Positions 24,894-38,502 of a stretch of 64,000 nucleotides of DNA are shown here, in pieces. Positions within the stretch are counted from its first letter, which is position 1; every line of letters begins with the position of its first letter. The position numbers and the translations under genes were made by a program. Origin of the DNA: Streptomyces spectabilis (GTDB lineage: Bacteria; Actinomycetota; Actinomycetes; Streptomycetales; Streptomycetaceae); assembly GCF_008704795.1 (NCBI RefSeq), contig NZ_CP023690.1, positions 4,846,501 through 4,910,500 on the forward strand. Direction: 5' to 3'. The notes below the pieces were generated by a model that saw only the letters and a program-made list of their open reading frames with translations, made no database searches and was not told the origin of the DNA.

Positions 24894-25829
24894 ATGTCGG
24901 CGACGCGCTACACCTACCTCGGCCCTGAAGGCACCTTCACGGAGGCCGCCCTGCGCACCCTGCCGGAGGCGGCGGCCCGCGAGCTGGTGCCGATGGTCTC
25001 GGTTCCGGCCGCCCTCGACGCCGTGCGCGCGAGCGAGGCCGCGGCGGCGCTGGTGCCCATCGAGAACTCGGTGGAGGGCGGCGTCACGACCACCGTGGAC
25101 GAGCTGGCCAAGGGCGAGCCGTTGATGATCTACCGCGAGGTCGTCCTGCCGATCGCCTTCGCGCTCCTGGTGCGTCCGGGCACCGCGCTCAAGGACGTCA
25201 AGACGGTGACCGGGCACCCGGTGGCCCAGCCGCAGGTGCGCAACTGGCTGGCCGCCCAGCTGCCGGACGCGGTGTGGGAGTCGGCGGCGTCGAACGCGGA
25301 CGGCGCCCGCCTCGTGCAGGAGGGCCGGTTCGACGCGGCGTTCGCGGGCGAGTTCGCCGCGGTGACGTACGGGCTCGAACCGCTGGTCACCGAGATCCAC
25401 GACGCGGCGAACGCGGCGACGCGGTTCGTCCTCGTGGGCCGCCCGGCCCGGCCCGCCGCGCCGACGGGCGCGGACAAGACGTCCCTGGTGATCTGGCTCG
25501 GCGACGACCACCCCGGCGCGCTTCTCGAACTGCTCCAGGAGTTCGCGGTGCGCGGCGTCAACCTGATGCGCATCGAGTCCCGTCCGACGGGGCGCGGCAT
25601 CGGCAACTACTGCTTCTCCGTGGACGCCGAGGGGCACATCACGGACCGCCGTGTGGGCGAGGCGCTGATGGGCCTGAAGAGGATCTGCCCGAAGGTGCGC
25701 TTCCTCGGCTCGTATCCGCGCGCGGGCGTGGCCCCGGAGGACGTACGGCCGCCGCGCCCCGGGACGTCCGACGAGGAGTTCACGTCGGCGTCGGACTGGC
25801 TCGCGCGCTGCCAGGACGGCCGATTCTGA
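24894..25829 (+). CDS. pheA: Prephenate dehydratase
   Basis: A 311-residue enzyme converting prephenate to phenylpyruvate in phenylalanine synthesis. The two-lobed dehydratase domain starts at TYLGPEGTFTEAAL, contains VPIENSVEGGV and ends with the catalytic NAATRFVLVG (TRF). A C-terminal ACT domain with ESRPTGRGIGNYCFSVD binds phenylalanine for feedback inhibition. There is no chorismate mutase domain. The start is ATG 24894, without a ribosome site. The next gene on the same strand is serS, across a 0.66 kb spacer. Confidence 0.95.
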   Translation: MSATRYTYLGPEGTFTEAALRTLPEAAARELVPMVSVPAALDAVRASEAAAALVPIENSVEGGVTTTVDELAKGEPLMIYREVVLPIAFALLVRPGTALKDVKTVTGHPVAQPQVRNWLAAQLPDAVWESAASNADGARLVQEGRFDAAFAGEFAAVTYGLEPLVTEIHDAANAATRFVLVGRPARPAAPTGADKTSLVIWLGDDHPGALLELLQEFAVRGVNLMRIESRPTGRGIGNYCFSVDAEGHITDRRVGEALMGLKRICPKVRFLGSYPRAGVAPEDVRPPRPGTSDEEFTSASDWLARCQDGRF

Positions 25830-26492
25830 GCGTTTAGAGCTCCGTCACCGGGTCTTCCCGGTGCTTCGGCCTGCCCGTACACAGGCCTGGATCTGCAGTC
25901 CTACCTGCAGATTTATGTTGTCCACAGAAGTTATCCACAGGTTCCCTTCTCGACCTGGGGACAAGTCGACACGGCAGCACGACATCGTCGACAAATCGGT
26001 ACCCAGCACCCAAGTCCGCCCACAGCCACTCTCGTCACTCCTTCGTCCACCTTTTTCCATGCGGCAACACTTTGGAGTTAACCAATTCCACTCGAAAGTT
26101 GGCGCTGAGCAGGTTTGGGAAGGGAATCCTTCAGCATGGGGAACCATGGAAAGAGCCCCGATCCTGCATCCACAGATCTTTCGCACAGCCTGTGGATAAC
26201 TTTCCGGACAGCCCCATTCCTGTGGACAACCGGCTCCCCAAGTCCCGTTTCCCACAAGGCAATCCGGTCAAGGCGACAAGGCCCGTCTGCCCCGATTCGG
26301 GGAATGACGCCCGTTTTATTGACCCCGTCGGGCCGCGCGCGACGGCCTCGCCGAGCACCCGGCAGGCGCCCGTCCCCACCCGTGAAAGCCGAAGCGACGG
26401 GCGAGAAATTCACATTCCGGCATATCGGTCATAACGGAGGGCAGGGGAAAATCAAGTCGTGGGCCGGAAGCGCACGAAGGTAGCCTGGGGGG
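25830..26492. other. Spacer between pheA and serS with a cluster of DnaA boxes
   Basis: Unusually long and AT-rich for this chromosome. It has two exact 9-mer boxes in plus orientation (TTGTCCACA 25918-25926, TTATCCACA 25931-25939) and the same two in minus orientation (26191-26199 and 26221-26229). A degenerate box, GCATCCACA, lies at 26166-26174. No protein-coding frame with a ribosome site was found. The serS promoter must be in its right part. There is no dnaA or dnaN gene nearby, so this is not the usual oriC. Confidence 0.7.
25918..26229. promoter_or_regulatory. DnaA-box cluster (four exact, one weak)
   Basis: Boxes are TTGTCCACA (25918, plus), TTATCCACA (25931, plus), GCATCCACA (26166, weak, plus), TTATCCACA (26191-26199, minus) and TTGTCCACA (26221-26229, minus). 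The outer pairs face each other. The first two are 13 bases apart start to start. TTGTCCACA is the preferred box of the GC-rich Streptomyces DnaA. Clusters outside oriC can titrate DnaA, as datA does in E. coli. Confidence 0.8.
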
Positions 26493-27782
26493 GTGATTGA
26501 CCTTCGCCTGCTCCGTGAGGACCCCGACCGTGTTCGCGCTTCGCAGCGCGCCCGTGGAGAGGACGTCGGCCTCGTCGACTCCCTGCTCTCCGCCGACGAG
26601 CGGCGCAGGTCGTCAGGGGTCCGCTTCGACGAGCTCCGGTCCGAGCAGAAGGCGCTCGGCAAGCTCATCCCCAAGGCCTCCGGCGACGAGAAGGCCGACC
26701 TCCTGAAGAAGGCGGGCGAGCTGGCCGCCGCCGTCAAGGCGGCGGGCGCCGAGCAGGACGAGGCCGACGAGGAGACCAAGCGCCTCCTCCTCCGCCTCGG
26801 CAACCTCGTGCACCCGGACGTCCCGGTCGGCGGCGAGGAGGACTTCGTCGTCCTGGAGACGCACGGCACGGTCCGCGACTTCGCCGCCGAGGGCTTCGAG
26901 CCGAAGGACCACCTGGAGCTCGGCCAGGCGCTCGGCGCCATCGACGTCGAGCGCGCCGCCAAGGTCTCCGGCTCGCGCTTCTACTACCTGACGGGCGTCG
27001 GCGCGCTCCTGGAGCTCGCCCTGGTCAACGCGGCCATCGCGCAGGCCACCGAGGCCGGGTTCATCCCGATGCTGACCCCCGCGCTCGTCCGCCCGCACGC
27101 CATGGAGGGCACGGGCTTCCTCGGCCAGGCCGCGGAGAACGTGTACCACCTGGAGAAGGACGACTTCTACCTGGTCGGCACCTCCGAGGTCCCGCTCGCG
27201 GCGTACCACATGGACGAGATCATCGAGGCCGACAAGCTGCCCCTGCGGTACGCGGGCTTCTCGCCCTGCTTCCGCCGCGAGGCGGGCACGTACGGCAAGG
27301 ACACCCGCGGCATCTTCCGGGTGCACCAGTTCGACAAGGTCGAGATGTTCTCGTACGTCGCCCCGGAGGACGCCGCGGCCGAGCACCAGCGGCTCCTCGA
27401 CTGGGAGAAGCAGTGGCTGAACGCCCTTGAGCTGCCCTTCCAGGTGATCGACGTCGCCACGGGCGACCTGGGCGCGTCCGCCTCGCGCAAGTTCGACTGC
27501 GAGGCGTGGATCCCCACCCAGGGCAAGTACCGCGAGCTGACCTCCGCGTCGAACTGCGACAGCTTCCAGGCCCGCCGGCTCTCCGTGCGCATGCGCGAGG
27601 AGCAGGGCGGCAAGAAGAACGTCCAGCCGCTCGCCACTCTGAACGGCACGCTGTGCGCCGTGCCGCGCACGATCGTGGCGCTCCTGGAGAACCACCAGCT
27701 CGCGGACGGCTCCGTGCGCGTCCCCGAGGTCCTCCGTCCGTACCTGGGCGGCCGCGAGATCCTGGAGCCCCTCGCCAAGTGA
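26493..27782 (+). CDS. serS: Seryl-tRNA synthetase
   Basis: A 429-residue class II aminoacyl-tRNA synthetase that charges tRNA-Ser. The N-terminal antiparallel coiled coil (about residues 30-110, Lys/Glu/Ala-rich) holds the tRNA variable arm. The catalytic domain contains [12 protein letters not shown], motif 2 [18 protein letters not shown] with HQFDKVEMF, and a C-terminal motif 3 region ([19 protein letters not shown]). The start is GTG 26493. The last bases overlap the next gene's GTG (GTGA), coupling its translation. Confidence 0.97.
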
Positions 27783-33978: not shown

Positions 33979-35750
33979 CGACCGTCGATCTGAAGGGCGC
34001 CCGGGAGCGCTGGGTGCGCACCGGTGGCGTGGAGCTGTGCGTCGCGGAGCTGGGCGACGCCGGGCGGCCCACGGTGCTGCTCGTGCACGGCTATCCGGAC
34101 TCCAAGGAAGTGTGGTCCGAGGTCGCCACGCGCCTGGCCGAGCGCTTCCACGTGGTGCTGTACGACGTGCGCGGCCACGGCAGGTCGACGGCCCCGAAGC
34201 CCCTGCGCGGCGGCTTCACACTGGAGAAGCTGACCGACGACTTCCTCGCGGTCGCCGACGCGGTCAGCCCGGACGCGCCGGTGCACCTGGTGGGCCACGA
34301 CTGGGGCTCGGTGCAGGCCTGGGAGTTCGTGACGGTCCAGCGCACCCAGGGGCGGATCGCGTCCTTCACCTCGATGTCGGGCCCGTCCCTCGACCACTTC
34401 GGACACTGGATCAAGAAGCGCCTGTCCCGGCCGACCCCGCGCCGGGCCGCCCAGCTCATCAACCAGGGCGCCAAGTCCTGGTACGTGTACATGCTGCACA
34501 CCCCGGTCCTCCCCGAGCTGGCCTGGCGCGGTCCGCTCGGCCGCCGCTGGCCGAAGATCCTCCAGCGCGTGGAGAAGGTGCCCGCGGACGGCTACCCCAC
34601 GCCGTCCCTGCCGACGGACGCCGCGCACGGCGCCTGGCTCTACCGCGACAACGTCCGCGCCCGGCTGCGCCGCCCCCGCCCGGACGCGTACGCGCACGTG
34701 CCGGTGCAGCTCATCACTCCCGCGGGCGACGCCTTCCTGTCCCAGCGGCTGTACGACGACCTGGAGCAGTGGGCCCCGGACCTGACCCGGCGCACGCTGC
34801 CCGCCAAGCACTGGGTGCCGCGCACCAGGCCCGACCAACTGACCGCCTGGATCACGGATTTCGTCACCACCCACGAGGACGGCGTGCCGCCGGTGGCGAG
34901 CGCGGCGTCGGCCCCCGGTAAGCACGCCGACCGGTTCTCCGGCCAGCTGGTGCTCGTCACGGGCGCGGGCAGCGGCATCGGACGGGCCACGGCGTTCGCG
35001 TTCGCCGAGGCGGGCGCGCGCGTGGTGGCCGTGGACCGGGACGCGGAGAGCGCGGCCCGCACCGCCGAGATGTCCCGGCTCGACGGCGCCCCCGCGGCCT
35101 GGGCCGAGACGGTCGACGTCAGCGACGAGCAGGCCATGGAGAAGCTCGCCGAGAAGGTCGCCACGGAGTACGGCGTGGTGGACGTTCTGGTGAACAACGC
35201 GGGCATCGGCCTGTCCGGCTCCTTCCTCGACACCAGCGCCGAGGACTGGAAGAAGGTCCTGGACGTCAATCTGTGGGGCGTCATCCACGGCTGCCGCCTC
35301 TTCGGCAAGCAGATGGCCGAGCGCGGCCAGGGCGGCCACATCGTGAACACCGCGTCGGCCGCGGCCTATCAGCCCTCGCGCGCCCTGCCGGCGTACAGCA
35401 CGTCGAAGGCGGCCGTCCTGATGCTCAGCGAGTGCCTGCGCGCCGAGCTCGCGGGCCAGGGCATCGGCGTCTCCGCCATCTGCCCGGGCTTCGTGAACAC
35501 GAACATCACGGCGACCGCCCGCTTCGCCGGGGTCTCCGCCGACGAGGAGGCCCGCCGCCAGAAGAAGTCCGCCCGGCTCTACGGCCTGCGCAACTACCCG
35601 CCGGAGAAGGTCGCGGACGCCGTCCTGCGCGCCGTGGTCCGCAACCAGGCCGTGGTGCCGGTCACCCCGGAGGCGCGTGGCGCCCATCTCATGTCCCGCT
35701 TCGCGCCCAGGGCCCTGCGCGCGCTGGCCCGATTGGAGCCACCGCTGTGA
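33975..35750 (+). CDS. Alpha/beta-hydrolase fused to short-chain dehydrogenase (EphD-like)
   Basis: A 591-residue fusion. Residues 20-300 are an epoxide-hydrolase-type alpha/beta-hydrolase with the oxyanion motif LVHGYPDSKEVW and the nucleophile Asp109 in VGHDWGS. Residues about 312-591 are a classical SDR: TGAGSGIG (about 328-335), NNAGIG, and the catalytic Tyr474-x3-Lys478 in YSTSK. The architecture and length match mycobacterial EphD, which is linked to lipid epoxide metabolism there. A joined hydrolase and oxidoreductase would allow two steps on one lipid-like substrate. Starts overlap on both sides (ATGA, GTGA). Confidence 0.9.
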   Translation: MTTVDLKGARERWVRTGGVELCVAELGDAGRPTVLLVHGYPDSKEVWSEVATRLAERFHVVLYDVRGHGRSTAPKPLRGGFTLEKLTDDFLAVADAVSPDAPVHLVGHDWGSVQAWEFVTVQRTQGRIASFTSMSGPSLDHFGHWIKKRLSRPTPRRAAQLINQGAKSWYVYMLHTPVLPELAWRGPLGRRWPKILQRVEKVPADGYPTPSLPTDAAHGAWLYRDNVRARLRRPRPDAYAHVPVQLITPAGDAFLSQRLYDDLEQWAPDLTRRTLPAKHWVPRTRPDQLTAWITDFVTTHEDGVPPVASAASAPGKHADRFSGQLVLVTGAGSGIGRATAFAFAEAGARVVAVDRDAESAARTAEMSRLDGAPAAWAETVDVSDEQAMEKLAEKVATEYGVVDVLVNNAGIGLSGSFLDTSAEDWKKVLDVNLWGVIHGCRLFGKQMAERGQGGHIVNTASAAAYQPSRALPAYSTSKAAVLMLSECLRAELAGQGIGVSAICPGFVNTNITATARFAGVSADEEARRQKKSARLYGLRNYPPEKVADAVLRAVVRNQAVVPVTPEARGAHLMSRFAPRALRALARLEPPL

Positions 35751-36679
35751 GCACGGAGCACCGCGCCACGCCGCCCCCCGAGGAGCACTACACGATCGTT
35801 CCGCGCCGGGTCTCCTTCGACTGGGACGCCACCCCGCTGCACTGGATCCCGGACGAGCCCACGGCCACCCATGTCATCAACGTCCTGCATCTGCTGCTCC
35901 CGGCAGGCGAGCGGTGGTTCGTGAAGGTCTTCAAGGAGGGCCTGCCGCTGATCACCGACCCGGTGCTGCGCGCGGACGTCAAGGGGTTCATGGGGCAGGA
36001 GGCCACGCACAGCGTGCAGCACGCGTACGTGCTCGATCACCTGGCCGCGCAGCGCCTGGACACCACCGGGTTCACCAAGTACGTGGACTTCCTGTTCGAG
36101 AAGCTCCTCGGCGAGCGGCCGCCGCTGGGCGCGCCCGTGCCCACGCAGGAGTGGCTGCGCTTCCGCCTCGCGATCGTCGCGGCCATCGAGCAGTTCACGG
36201 CGGTGCTCGGCGACTGGGTGCTGCACGCGGAGGGCCTCGACCGGGCGCGGGCGGACGAGGTCATGCTGGACCTGCTGCGCTGGCACGGCGCGGAGGAGGT
36301 CGAGCACCGCGCCGTCGCCTTCGACATGTACCAGCACTGCGGCGGCACCGGGGCCGCCCGGTACGTGCGCCGGGTGGCGGGCATGACGGTCACGGCCCCG
36401 GTGATGCTGTACCTGTGGCTGTGGGGCGCCGCGTATCTCGTCCGCCACGATCCCCGGCTGGCGGGGCGGCTGCGGTATTCGCTGCTCGCACACAACAGGG
36501 CGGTCAAGAAGGGGCTGCTGCCGACCTGGCGGCAGATAGGCGCGGCCGTGCCCCGCTATCTGCGGCGGTCGTACCATCCGTCGCAGGAGGGTTCGCTGCG
36601 CAGGGCCGTCGAGTATCTGGCCTGGTCGCCCGCCGCGCGGGCCGCGGTGGCGGCGGCCGGGCGCGCGGCGATCGCCTAG
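35747..36679 (+). CDS. Ferritin-like metal-dependent hydrolase (PF10118 type)
   Basis: A 310-residue helical protein. Candidate di-metal ligands are GQEATHSVQHA and WHGAEEVEHRAVAFD. A hydrophobic stretch (MTVTAPVMLYLWLWGAAYLV, about residues 222-241) suggests membrane association. The N-terminus reads IVPRRVSFDWDATPLHWIPD, as in this family. The start GTG 35747 overlaps the preceding stop, so it is coupled to the EphD-like gene. Its reaction is unknown; it may act on the same lipid substrate. Confidence 0.85.
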   Translation: MSTEHRATPPPEEHYTIVPRRVSFDWDATPLHWIPDEPTATHVINVLHLLLPAGERWFVKVFKEGLPLITDPVLRADVKGFMGQEATHSVQHAYVLDHLAAQRLDTTGFTKYVDFLFEKLLGERPPLGAPVPTQEWLRFRLAIVAAIEQFTAVLGDWVLHAEGLDRARADEVMLDLLRWHGAEEVEHRAVAFDMYQHCGGTGAARYVRRVAGMTVTAPVMLYLWLWGAAYLVRHDPRLAGRLRYSLLAHNRAVKKGLLPTWRQIGAAVPRYLRRSYHPSQEGSLRRAVEYLAWSPAARAAVAAAGRAAIA

Positions 36680-36738
36680 CGCCGAGTACGACCGGGGCCG
36701 CTGGTGCCGCCGGTGCCGCCGGGAAAGGACGGGGAGCG

Positions 36739-37749
36739 TTGGACGAGCACAGGGAGGAAGCCCGGGTCGCGGAGGCACCGGGACCGCCCCCGGTGGAGCC
36801 GCCGGGCGCGCCCCGGGTGGAGTACCGCATAGAGGATCTCGCCCACCACAGCGGAGCCACGGTGCGCACCATCCGGGCCTATCAGGACCGTGGCCTGCTC
36901 CCCCGGCCGGAGCGGCGCGGGCGGTCCAATGTGTACGGCGACGCCCATCTGGCGCGGCTGCGCCAGATCGCGGACCTGCTCGACCGGGGGTACACCCTGG
37001 CCTCCATCAAGGAGCTGCTCGAAGCCTGGGACGCGGGCCGTGGCCTCGGCGGCGTCCTCGGTCTGGTCGCCGAGGTCGACGGGCCGTGGACGGACGAGAA
37101 GGCCGACCGGATCACCCGGGCGGAGCTGGCGGCGGCGTTCGGCGGCACTCCGGACGACGCCGCGGTCGCGGACGCCGTGGCGCTCGGCGTGCTCGAACCG
37201 CTGCCGGGGACGGACGACGAGTTCCTGGTGCCGAGCCCCCAGGAGCTGGCGGTGGCCGCCGAGTTGCACGCGGCGGGTGTTCCGCTGTCGGCGATCGGCG
37301 GACATTTGCGGGAGTTGCGGGGGCAGGTCGAGCACATAGCGGCGCGTTTCCTGGAGTTCACCAATGAGCACGTCTTCGCGCGCTATCTGGGAAACCATCC
37401 GCCGAGCGAGGCGGACGCGGCGGAGGCGGCCTCCCTCATCCGCAGACTGAGGCCGCTCGCGCAGAAGTCGGTCGACGCCGAACTGGCCCGTGCCATGCGC
37501 CTGTTCGCCACCCGTCACCTCCGTCGCCATCTGGCCGCGGAGGAGCCGCCGCAGCGGCGTGACGAGCTGCAGTACGTGGCGCTGCCCGCCAGCACAATGG
37601 ACGCGGTCCAGGCGCTGGTTGGGCAGGAGAACATGGCCGCGTTCATCACGGCGGCAGCCGAACGCGAGCTGCACAGCCGGACATTGGATGCACTTACGAC
37701 AACTAGGAATGATTCCGGCATAGTTCCCCAAAAGCCTCCTTTCGCCTGA
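36739..37749 (+). CDS. MerR-family transcriptional regulator of the EphD-like operon
   Basis: A 336-residue protein with a MerR winged helix at about residues 29-98: YRIEDLAHHSGATVRTIRAY, then YTLASIKELLEAW. The effector region is long and has no metal-binding cysteines. The C-terminal segment (STMDAVQALVGQENMAAFI) resembles ribbon-helix or antitoxin-like motifs, but this is uncertain. The start is TTG 36739, with AAGGA 9 bases upstream; no ATG or GTG fits. It is probably the regulator of the three genes before it, from which it is separated by 59 bases. Confidence 0.85.
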   Translation: MDEHREEARVAEAPGPPPVEPPGAPRVEYRIEDLAHHSGATVRTIRAYQDRGLLPRPERRGRSNVYGDAHLARLRQIADLLDRGYTLASIKELLEAWDAGRGLGGVLGLVAEVDGPWTDEKADRITRAELAAAFGGTPDDAAVADAVALGVLEPLPGTDDEFLVPSPQELAVAAELHAAGVPLSAIGGHLRELRGQVEHIAARFLEFTNEHVFARYLGNHPPSEADAAEAASLIRRLRPLAQKSVDAELARAMRLFATRHLRRHLAAEEPPQRRDELQYVALPASTMDAVQALVGQENMAAFITAAAERELHSRTLDALTTTRNDSGIVPQKPPFA

Positions 37750-37752
37750 GAG

Positions 37753-37806
37753 TTGTCCACAGAATTTCCAAGTGGCCTGTGGATAACCAGACTTGTCTGT
37801 GGATCA
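37753..37806. promoter_or_regulatory. DnaA-box cluster upstream of kptA
   Basis: Boxes are TTGTCCACA (37753-37761, plus), TTATCCACA (37778-37786, minus) and TGATCCACA (37798-37806, minus, one mismatch). The three lie within 54 bases in the spacer between the MerR gene and kptA. Confidence 0.75.
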
Positions 37807-37890: not shown

Positions 37891-38502
37891 ATGAAAGAAG
37901 GACAAGCTCCGGAAGGACGCCCTCTGGACGAGAGAGGCACGGGAGAGGCCCCTCCGGGCGACCAGCGCGCCCTAAAGGTGTCGAAATACCTGTCGAAGCA
38001 CCTGCGGCACCAGCCCGAGCGCATCGGGATCACCCTCGACGACAGCGGCTGGGTGGACATCGGCACATTGCTCGCGGCCGCAGCGGCCCATGGGTTCCGC
38101 TTCACCCGGGCCGAGCTCGACCACGTGGTGGCCGCCAACGACAAGCAGCGGTTCACGGTGGACGGCGACCGGATCCGCGCCAACCAGGGCCACTCCGTCA
38201 CCGTGGACCTCCGGCTGCCCCCGGCCGTCCCGCCCGCGTACCTCCACCACGGCACGGTGGCCCGCCATCTCCCCGCGATCCGGGCCGAGGGCCTGCGGCC
38301 GATGAACCGGCACGCGGTCCACCTCTCGCCCGACCGCGAGACGGCCACGCGCGTGGGAGCGCGGCGCGGCCGCCCCGTCGTCCTGTCCGTCGACTCCGGC
38401 GCGATGCACCGCGACGGCCACGTCTTCCACGTCAGCGCCAACGGCGTCTGGCTCACCGCCGCCGTGCCCGCCCGCTATCTGCGCTTCCCGGCACCCCACT
38501 GA
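37891..38502 (+). CDS. kptA: RNA 2'-phosphotransferase (Tpt1/KptA)
   Basis: A 203-residue enzyme that moves a 2'-phosphate from RNA to NAD+, giving ADP-ribose 1'',2''-cyclic phosphate. Family motifs are SKYLSKHLRHQPERIG, RFTVDGDRIRANQGHS, the HHGTV NAD-binding element, LRPMNRHAVHLSPD, and SVDSGAMHRDGHVF. The N-terminal 25 residues are an extra charged extension. In yeast the substrate is spliced tRNA; in bacteria the substrate is not known. The start is ATG 37891, with GAAGAGA upstream. Confidence 0.93.
   Translation: MKEGQAPEGRPLDERGTGEAPPGDQRALKVSKYLSKHLRHQPERIGITLDDSGWVDIGTLLAAAAAHGFRFTRAELDHVVAANDKQRFTVDGDRIRANQGHSVTVDLRLPPAVPPAYLHHGTVARHLPAIRAEGLRPMNRHAVHLSPDRETATRVGARRGRPVVLSVDSGAMHRDGHVFHVSANGVWLTAAVPARYLRFPAPH

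Follow-up and report, generated by a model that had tools for sequence, protein, structure and literature searches.

The spacer between pheA, encoding prephenate dehydratase, and serS, encoding seryl-tRNA synthetase, lies within the 64,000-nucleotide stretch of the Streptomyces spectabilis chromosome that we analysed (the window). It is 663 bp long and contains no genes, and its GC content drops to 53%, compared with 68–79% in most of the surrounding 200-bp segments. Between 25918 and 26229 the spacer carries four exact matches to the DnaA-box pattern TTRTCCACA (strict boxes), two on the forward strand followed by two on the reverse strand, which form two sets that face inward (Table 1). A sequence scan and the GC profile thus confirmed the initial annotation, which had described four exact boxes (two facing right and two facing left) and a weaker one in an AT-rich, gene-free spacer. 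Beyond these boxes, we found more conserved weak boxes and conserved blocks that are not boxes.

Table 1. Features of the pheA–serS spacer and its flanking genes (positions in the window)
Feature	Position	Strand	Remarks
pheA (prephenate dehydratase), left neighbour	24894–25829	+	stop ends at 25829
DnaA box 1, outer left	25918–25926	+	TTGTCCACA; strict
DnaA box 2, inner left	25931–25939	+	TTATCCACA; strict
Conserved block CCTGGGGACAAGTCGACA	25954–25971	+	contains weak reverse box TTGTCCCCA, 25956–25964 (−)
Conserved block GTCGACAAAT	25987–25996	+	
Central conserved block	26034–26104	.	not built of strict DnaA boxes; includes CCACTCGAAAGTTGG (26088–26102)
Conserved block CATCCACAGAT, a weak forward DnaA box	26167–26177	+	
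DnaA box 3, inner right	26191–26199	−	TTATCCACA; strict
DnaA box 4, outer right	26221–26229	−	TTGTCCACA; strict
Promoter-like conserved GGTAGCCTGG, adjoining the serS start	26479–26488	+	−10 reading by eye
serS (seryl-tRNA synthetase), right neighbour	26493–27782	+	GTG start at 26493

The number of boxes in the window as a whole is not unusual: nine boxes with at most one mismatch were found versus 4.97 expected, and 8 of 100 shuffles reached nine. The 9.81-Mb genome contains 58 strict boxes, versus 17 matches to the reversed control pattern, and the pheA–serS spacer is its only place with four strict boxes inside 312 bp. When 58 sites were placed uniformly at random (a null for placement, not for composition), none of 20,000 trials gave such a group.

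We then compared the spacer with those of relatives, using 80 loci (the best 80 of 574 by pheA search), all but three of which are titled Streptomyces. Strict boxes were present in the pheA–serS spacer of all of these best 80, each of which had one or more in reverse orientation; in 79 a forward TTATCCACA came before a reverse strict box (the exception, L035, lacks the forward one); two reverse strict boxes were seen in 69 and a strict outer left box in 10, the latter thus being mostly lost in relatives. Lack of conservation among Streptomyces, which the initial annotation had named as the observation that would speak against its proposal, was therefore not what we found.

A second set of 137 loci was made of these 80, the window and 60 extra loci (141 in total), less three duplicates and L124, which has a poor right arm. 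The extra loci were taken from the 60 genomes that head the listed matches to a left-arm pattern, a choice that inflates the counts for box 2 and the weak box. Strict boxes were retained at the outer left position in 46, at the inner left in 136, at the inner right in 137 (counted after L124 was left out) and at the outer right in 112 of the 137 loci. The weak box TTGTCCCCA was kept in 132 of 137, a number biased by the 60 loci chosen by left-arm pattern, and TCCACA near 26169 in 136 of 137. The mean majority-base fraction, for which columns gapped in most rows count as 0, was 0.73 in the core (25930–26229), 0.23 in the left spacer, 0.32 in the right stretch and 0.70 next to serS. The conserved blocks are GTTATCCACAGG, CCTGGGGACAAGTCGACA, GTCGACAAAT, the centre, CATCCACAGAT and CACAGCCTGTGGATAAC; GTCGACA motifs are kept too, and the central block carries TTGATCAACTCTTTGGAG and CCACTCGAAAGTGG in many relatives. 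At one locus (L045:4958-5297) an insertion of 10 bp has given rise to a second, tandem copy of the weak box (CTGGGGATAA), about one helical turn from the first.

A sequence-only model built from 22 loci matched (E ≤ 0.001) 85 of 101 family genomes, representing 16 of 17 genera and including 21 of 21 genomes of the own genus. Strong matches (at least 78 bits, over nearly the whole model) were obtained in 54 genomes of nine genera; the other 31 were weaker (20–62 bits) and in some cases partial. Across 197 genomes sampled from the class as a whole, the 16 from the own genus scored 137–226 bits, and 20 of the 181 others matched, none above 29.3 bits and most only partially; matches at or below 29.3 bits might come from box-rich DNA alone. 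Because weak matches can be lost to the filters of both the family and the class searches, a miss in either is not equivalent to absence. The left-arm pattern was found in 291 of 392 genus genomes, and its strictness may explain many of the misses, because the model matched every one of the 21 own-genus genomes; a strict pattern spanning the cluster matched 13 of 101 family genomes only. In 20 stretches from other genera, picked by hand from the model matches, pheA was present in all 20 and serS in 18. In several stretches of g14, g3, g11 and g4 the right arm differs: its reverse box is followed by forward boxes. We conclude that the pheA–serS box cluster is a real, family-wide regulatory element.

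The best match to Bac_DnaA_C in the genome (108.7 bits) lies at 4.9638 Mb, 91.4 kb from the cluster. The stretch around the end of this dnaA match holds an oriC-like array of 11 boxes (at most one mismatch); GTCGACA was not found there. The cluster itself is not a long box array beside dnaA, since dnaA, with its own 11-box array, is 91 kb away; the earlier remark that there is no dnaA or dnaN nearby fits this distance to the closest dnaA match. The cluster lies 75.7–154.0 kb from dnaA in all 19 genomes measured, which come from seven genera and include two, G058 and G025, with a weak cluster match (32–34 bits). In the S. spectabilis genome, 17 of the 58 strict boxes sit within 100 kb of the origin, versus 1.2 expected. 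The pheA–serS cluster thus shares with the clusters reported in Streptomyces several strict boxes outside oriC and closeness to oriC, and, as in datA, it is a DnaA-box cluster outside oriC.

Other DnaA-related features were seen elsewhere in the genome. Within the window, at 37753–37806, two convergent strict boxes (37753, +; 37778, −) and TGATCCACA (37798, −) lie in the gap between ORFs 35677–37749 and 37891–38502, 11 kb from the cluster. The genome's next-best group (L164, G000:C1:5016421-5016631, at 5.016 Mb) has three strict boxes in 211 bp; it lies about 52 kb from oriC, on the opposite side, flanked by the 3′ ends of two converging ORFs that look rhomboid-like and CrgA-like by eye, and is possibly another of the reported Streptomyces clusters. 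CACAGCCTGTGGACAAC, a box in the right-arm setting, recurs elsewhere in many of the genus genomes among the matches listed, which may point to a further conserved DnaA site. A second DnaA-like ORF of 566 aa (L012:1420-3120, −; G000:C1, about 8.981–8.983 Mb) is found far out on the chromosome arm; it matches Bac_DnaA (174 bits) and Bac_DnaA_C (60.3 bits), and no Pfam family is matched by its N-terminal part; 18 other genomes searched gave one Bac_DnaA_C match each.

The spacing of the two arms varies in steps. The distance from the inner left to the inner right box (n=137) was 257–260 bp in 90 loci, 266–270 in 27, 277–281 in nine and 255–256 in five; rarer values were 249 (two loci) and 184, 272, 287 and 300 (once each). 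Insertions of 9–11 bp occur at differing points (L018, L045, L053, L066, L087, L089). On a pheA+serS tree with 81 tips, counting changes of more than 3 bp, we inferred 14 internal length changes (+10, −72, +12, −8, +8, +31, +9, +10, +8, +18, +8, +9, +20 and +10), of which ten were of 8–12 bp, two of 18–20, one of 31 and one of 72. Tested for helical phase, the internal changes differed from those of the left flank (p=0.005; right flank, p=0.29; pooled, p=0.039). Half-turn sizes were seen in 0 of 14 internal changes versus 15 of 37 in the left and 6 of 34 in the right flank (Fisher p=0.017, with zones set after seeing the data); in a preceding parsimony count, p was 0.034 relative to the flanks and 0.010 relative to uniform sizes. 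DnaA domain I self-contact is proposed to link distant box clusters within Streptomyces oriC (PMC13270200). Although the spacing departs from the mode by no more than 0.2 turn in 127 of 137 loci, which are not independent of one another, the same holds for only 7 of 17 hand-paired loci from other genera (L202, L212 and L213 left out of 20), which is the chance level, and the length changes of the right flank themselves lean toward about 11 bp. We therefore do not regard helical phasing as proven, given the right-flank test and the chance level in other genera; the steps of about 10 bp are a hint, no more, that a looped or side-by-side complex may form in Streptomyces.

The predicted S. coelicolor site for ScbR2, an antibiotic- and butyrolactone-related regulator, falls in the centre of the cluster; the matching place in the window begins with CTTCGTCCACC at 26041 (shared core 26041–26051). 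According to PMC4595836, serS is an EMSA-confirmed target of ScbR2 whose expression was about unchanged (ratio 0.947, in comparison with the scbR2 mutant); the upstream site was predicted by MEME, and binding need not change expression. We found CTTCGTCCACC in 19 of 141 loci and the predicted 28-mer, with at most two mismatches, in 8 of 392 genus genomes, and thus rejected the idea that the ScbR2 site is shared across the family. That ScbR2 is linked to replication is put forward here as a hypothesis, because the site is a MEME prediction limited to some relatives and because binding need not alter expression. One form of it, tentative and in our judgement rather unlikely, is a phase-sensitive nucleoprotein switch, in which the arms, about 260 bp apart, would sit on matching helix faces and the centre would be contacted by regulators, including ScbR2 in the S. 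coelicolor clade. If this is true, what was reported as the 'serS' target of ScbR2 would really be a site of replication control, through which replication would be tied to development and antibiotic signalling; the published ScbR2 target assigned to serS deserves a second look.

We also considered whether the spacer is transcribed into a functional RNA or translated. A search of Rfam with 25500–27000 gave no matches up to E=1. The single-strand fold of the whole stretch was strong (z −3.98); it was not taken as evidence for RNA, because its main helix forms by pairing of the inverted box arms with each other. An RNA element was rejected on these grounds. A coding spacer was rejected too: ORFs cross it mechanically, but relatives carry indels of 9–11 bp there. 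A consensus scan detected no sigma-70-type promoter and no terminator.

Taken together, we favour, with a probability of about 75%, the reading that 25918–26229 is a non-coding DnaA-binding locus, the ortholog of a cluster reported near oriC in S. coelicolor, that sequesters DnaA and acts as a datA-like negative regulator of initiation. The boxes, their order and conservation, the position near dnaA and the conserved non-box blocks are all observed. From these we infer that DnaA occupies the cluster and has a negative effect on initiation in S. spectabilis, as well as any looping. The two inward-facing sets of high-affinity boxes, together with the weaker ones, would serve as the nucleus of a DnaA complex spanning about 310 bp. 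The cluster would be copied soon after initiation, because it lies 76–154 kb from dnaA/oriC, and the doubled sites would then take up free DnaA and so delay the next initiation; it may also promote DnaA inactivation, as datA does in E. coli. The loss of the outer left box in most relatives (strict in 10 of the best 80 of 574 loci) and the rearranged right arm in other genera count against this reading. Experimental support for repression comes from S. coelicolor, as summarized in passages of reviews (PMC5742627, PMC4585315, PMC10950094).

Simple titration may be an incomplete account, because nothing in a plain sink would call for a conserved centre; a built complex is favoured by that centre and by the limited length change. 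Instead of a sink, the cluster could be a nucleoprotein switch, specific and sensitive to length, by which DnaA is inactivated or other regulators are integrated. The conserved centre, the 8–12 bp size of 10 of 14 internal changes and the insertions of 9–11 bp at differing points are consistent with such a switch, yet the phase signal differs between the flanks (p=0.005 left, 0.29 right, 0.039 pooled) and other genera are at chance (7 of 17), so we consider it unlikely. It is distinctly unlikely, in our view, that DnaA acts through the cluster to regulate serS (or pheA) and so couples a tRNA synthetase to replication. DnaA does act as a transcription factor elsewhere (PMC8203912), and the cluster stays between pheA and serS in other genera (pheA in 20 and serS in 18 of 20 stretches); however, staying near oriC would also be expected of a cluster for which the distance to oriC matters. 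The boxes neither overlap nor adjoin the serS promoter: the last one is about 260 bp upstream of serS, and the poor conservation of the stretch between (0.32) argues against serS control, while the region next to serS, with promoter-like GGTAGCCTGG right before the start codon, is conserved separately (0.70). We therefore rejected serS regulation as the main role.

An accessory place of replication initiation might be suspected in an AT-rich stretch with DnaA boxes, but the single oriC-like array of 11 boxes follows dnaA, the cluster is without that layout, and the reviews give such clusters a repressive role, making a second origin very improbable. A chance grouping, for which one could cite the unremarkable number of boxes in the window as a whole, is at odds with both the unique clustering in the genome (four in 312 bp) and the family-wide conservation, and its probability is close to negligible. 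Of the three options in the initial annotation, the datA-like titration site and the previously reported Streptomyces cluster are thus well supported by where the boxes lie, how they are arranged and how widely the family keeps them, and probably amount to one and the same; control of serS is not, the boxes being about 260 bp upstream.

On the DnaA-sequestration reading, a gene-free site that is constrained across the family would probably be what corresponds to datA in streptomycetes. We now provide its extent, its conserved sub-sites and a set of natural variants, and the question of whether it is a passive titration site or an active DnaA-inactivating complex becomes testable through changes to defined blocks.

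Reviews state that the DnaA-box clusters of S. coelicolor repress untimely initiation (PMC5742627, PMC4585315, PMC10950094), one describing them as 'close to oriC', and cite for them Smulczyk-Krawczyszyn et al. 2006, J Bacteriol 188:6184. In that species serS is SCO3961 and pheA is SCO3962, according to gene designations in PMC4595836 and PMC6585502, respectively. Both box forms listed as high-affinity, TTGTCCACA for S. coelicolor (PMC4285127) and TTATCCACA for E. coli, are present at the cluster. Of 392 genus genomes, only G331 has an exact copy of the printed 28-mer from upstream of S. coelicolor serS; seven more carry it with one or two mismatches. G331, which is S. coelicolor-like, has the same five boxes around the 28-mer, in the same place between pheA and serS, 81 kb from dnaA. 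The 2006 study by Smulczyk-Krawczyszyn et al. reportedly described three clusters, H69, H24 and D78, of which D78 is said to be the strongest and its deletion to result in more frequent replication. From gene lists, SCO3961 (serS) presumably belongs to cosmid D78. The pheA–serS cluster is probably the same locus as S. coelicolor D78; it is most likely the ortholog of an already reported element.

The S. coelicolor clusters of 2006 are thus the closest known system, being box clusters near oriC in Streptomyces, with the five boxes at pheA–serS in G331, although they belong to another species than S. spectabilis. Reviews (among PMC5742627, PMC4585315 and PMC10950094) call them analogous to E. 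coli datA, likewise a non-coding DnaA-box cluster outside oriC that is thought to hold back initiation. However, datA has another gene setting, with transcription into it from a tRNA operon (PMC10950094), and its resemblance to the pheA–serS cluster is one of analogy, not homology. B. subtilis also has DnaA-box clusters outside oriC that, according to passages of the reviews, repress untimely initiation, but these lie on an unrelated chromosome and are likened to the cluster by description, not by sequence.
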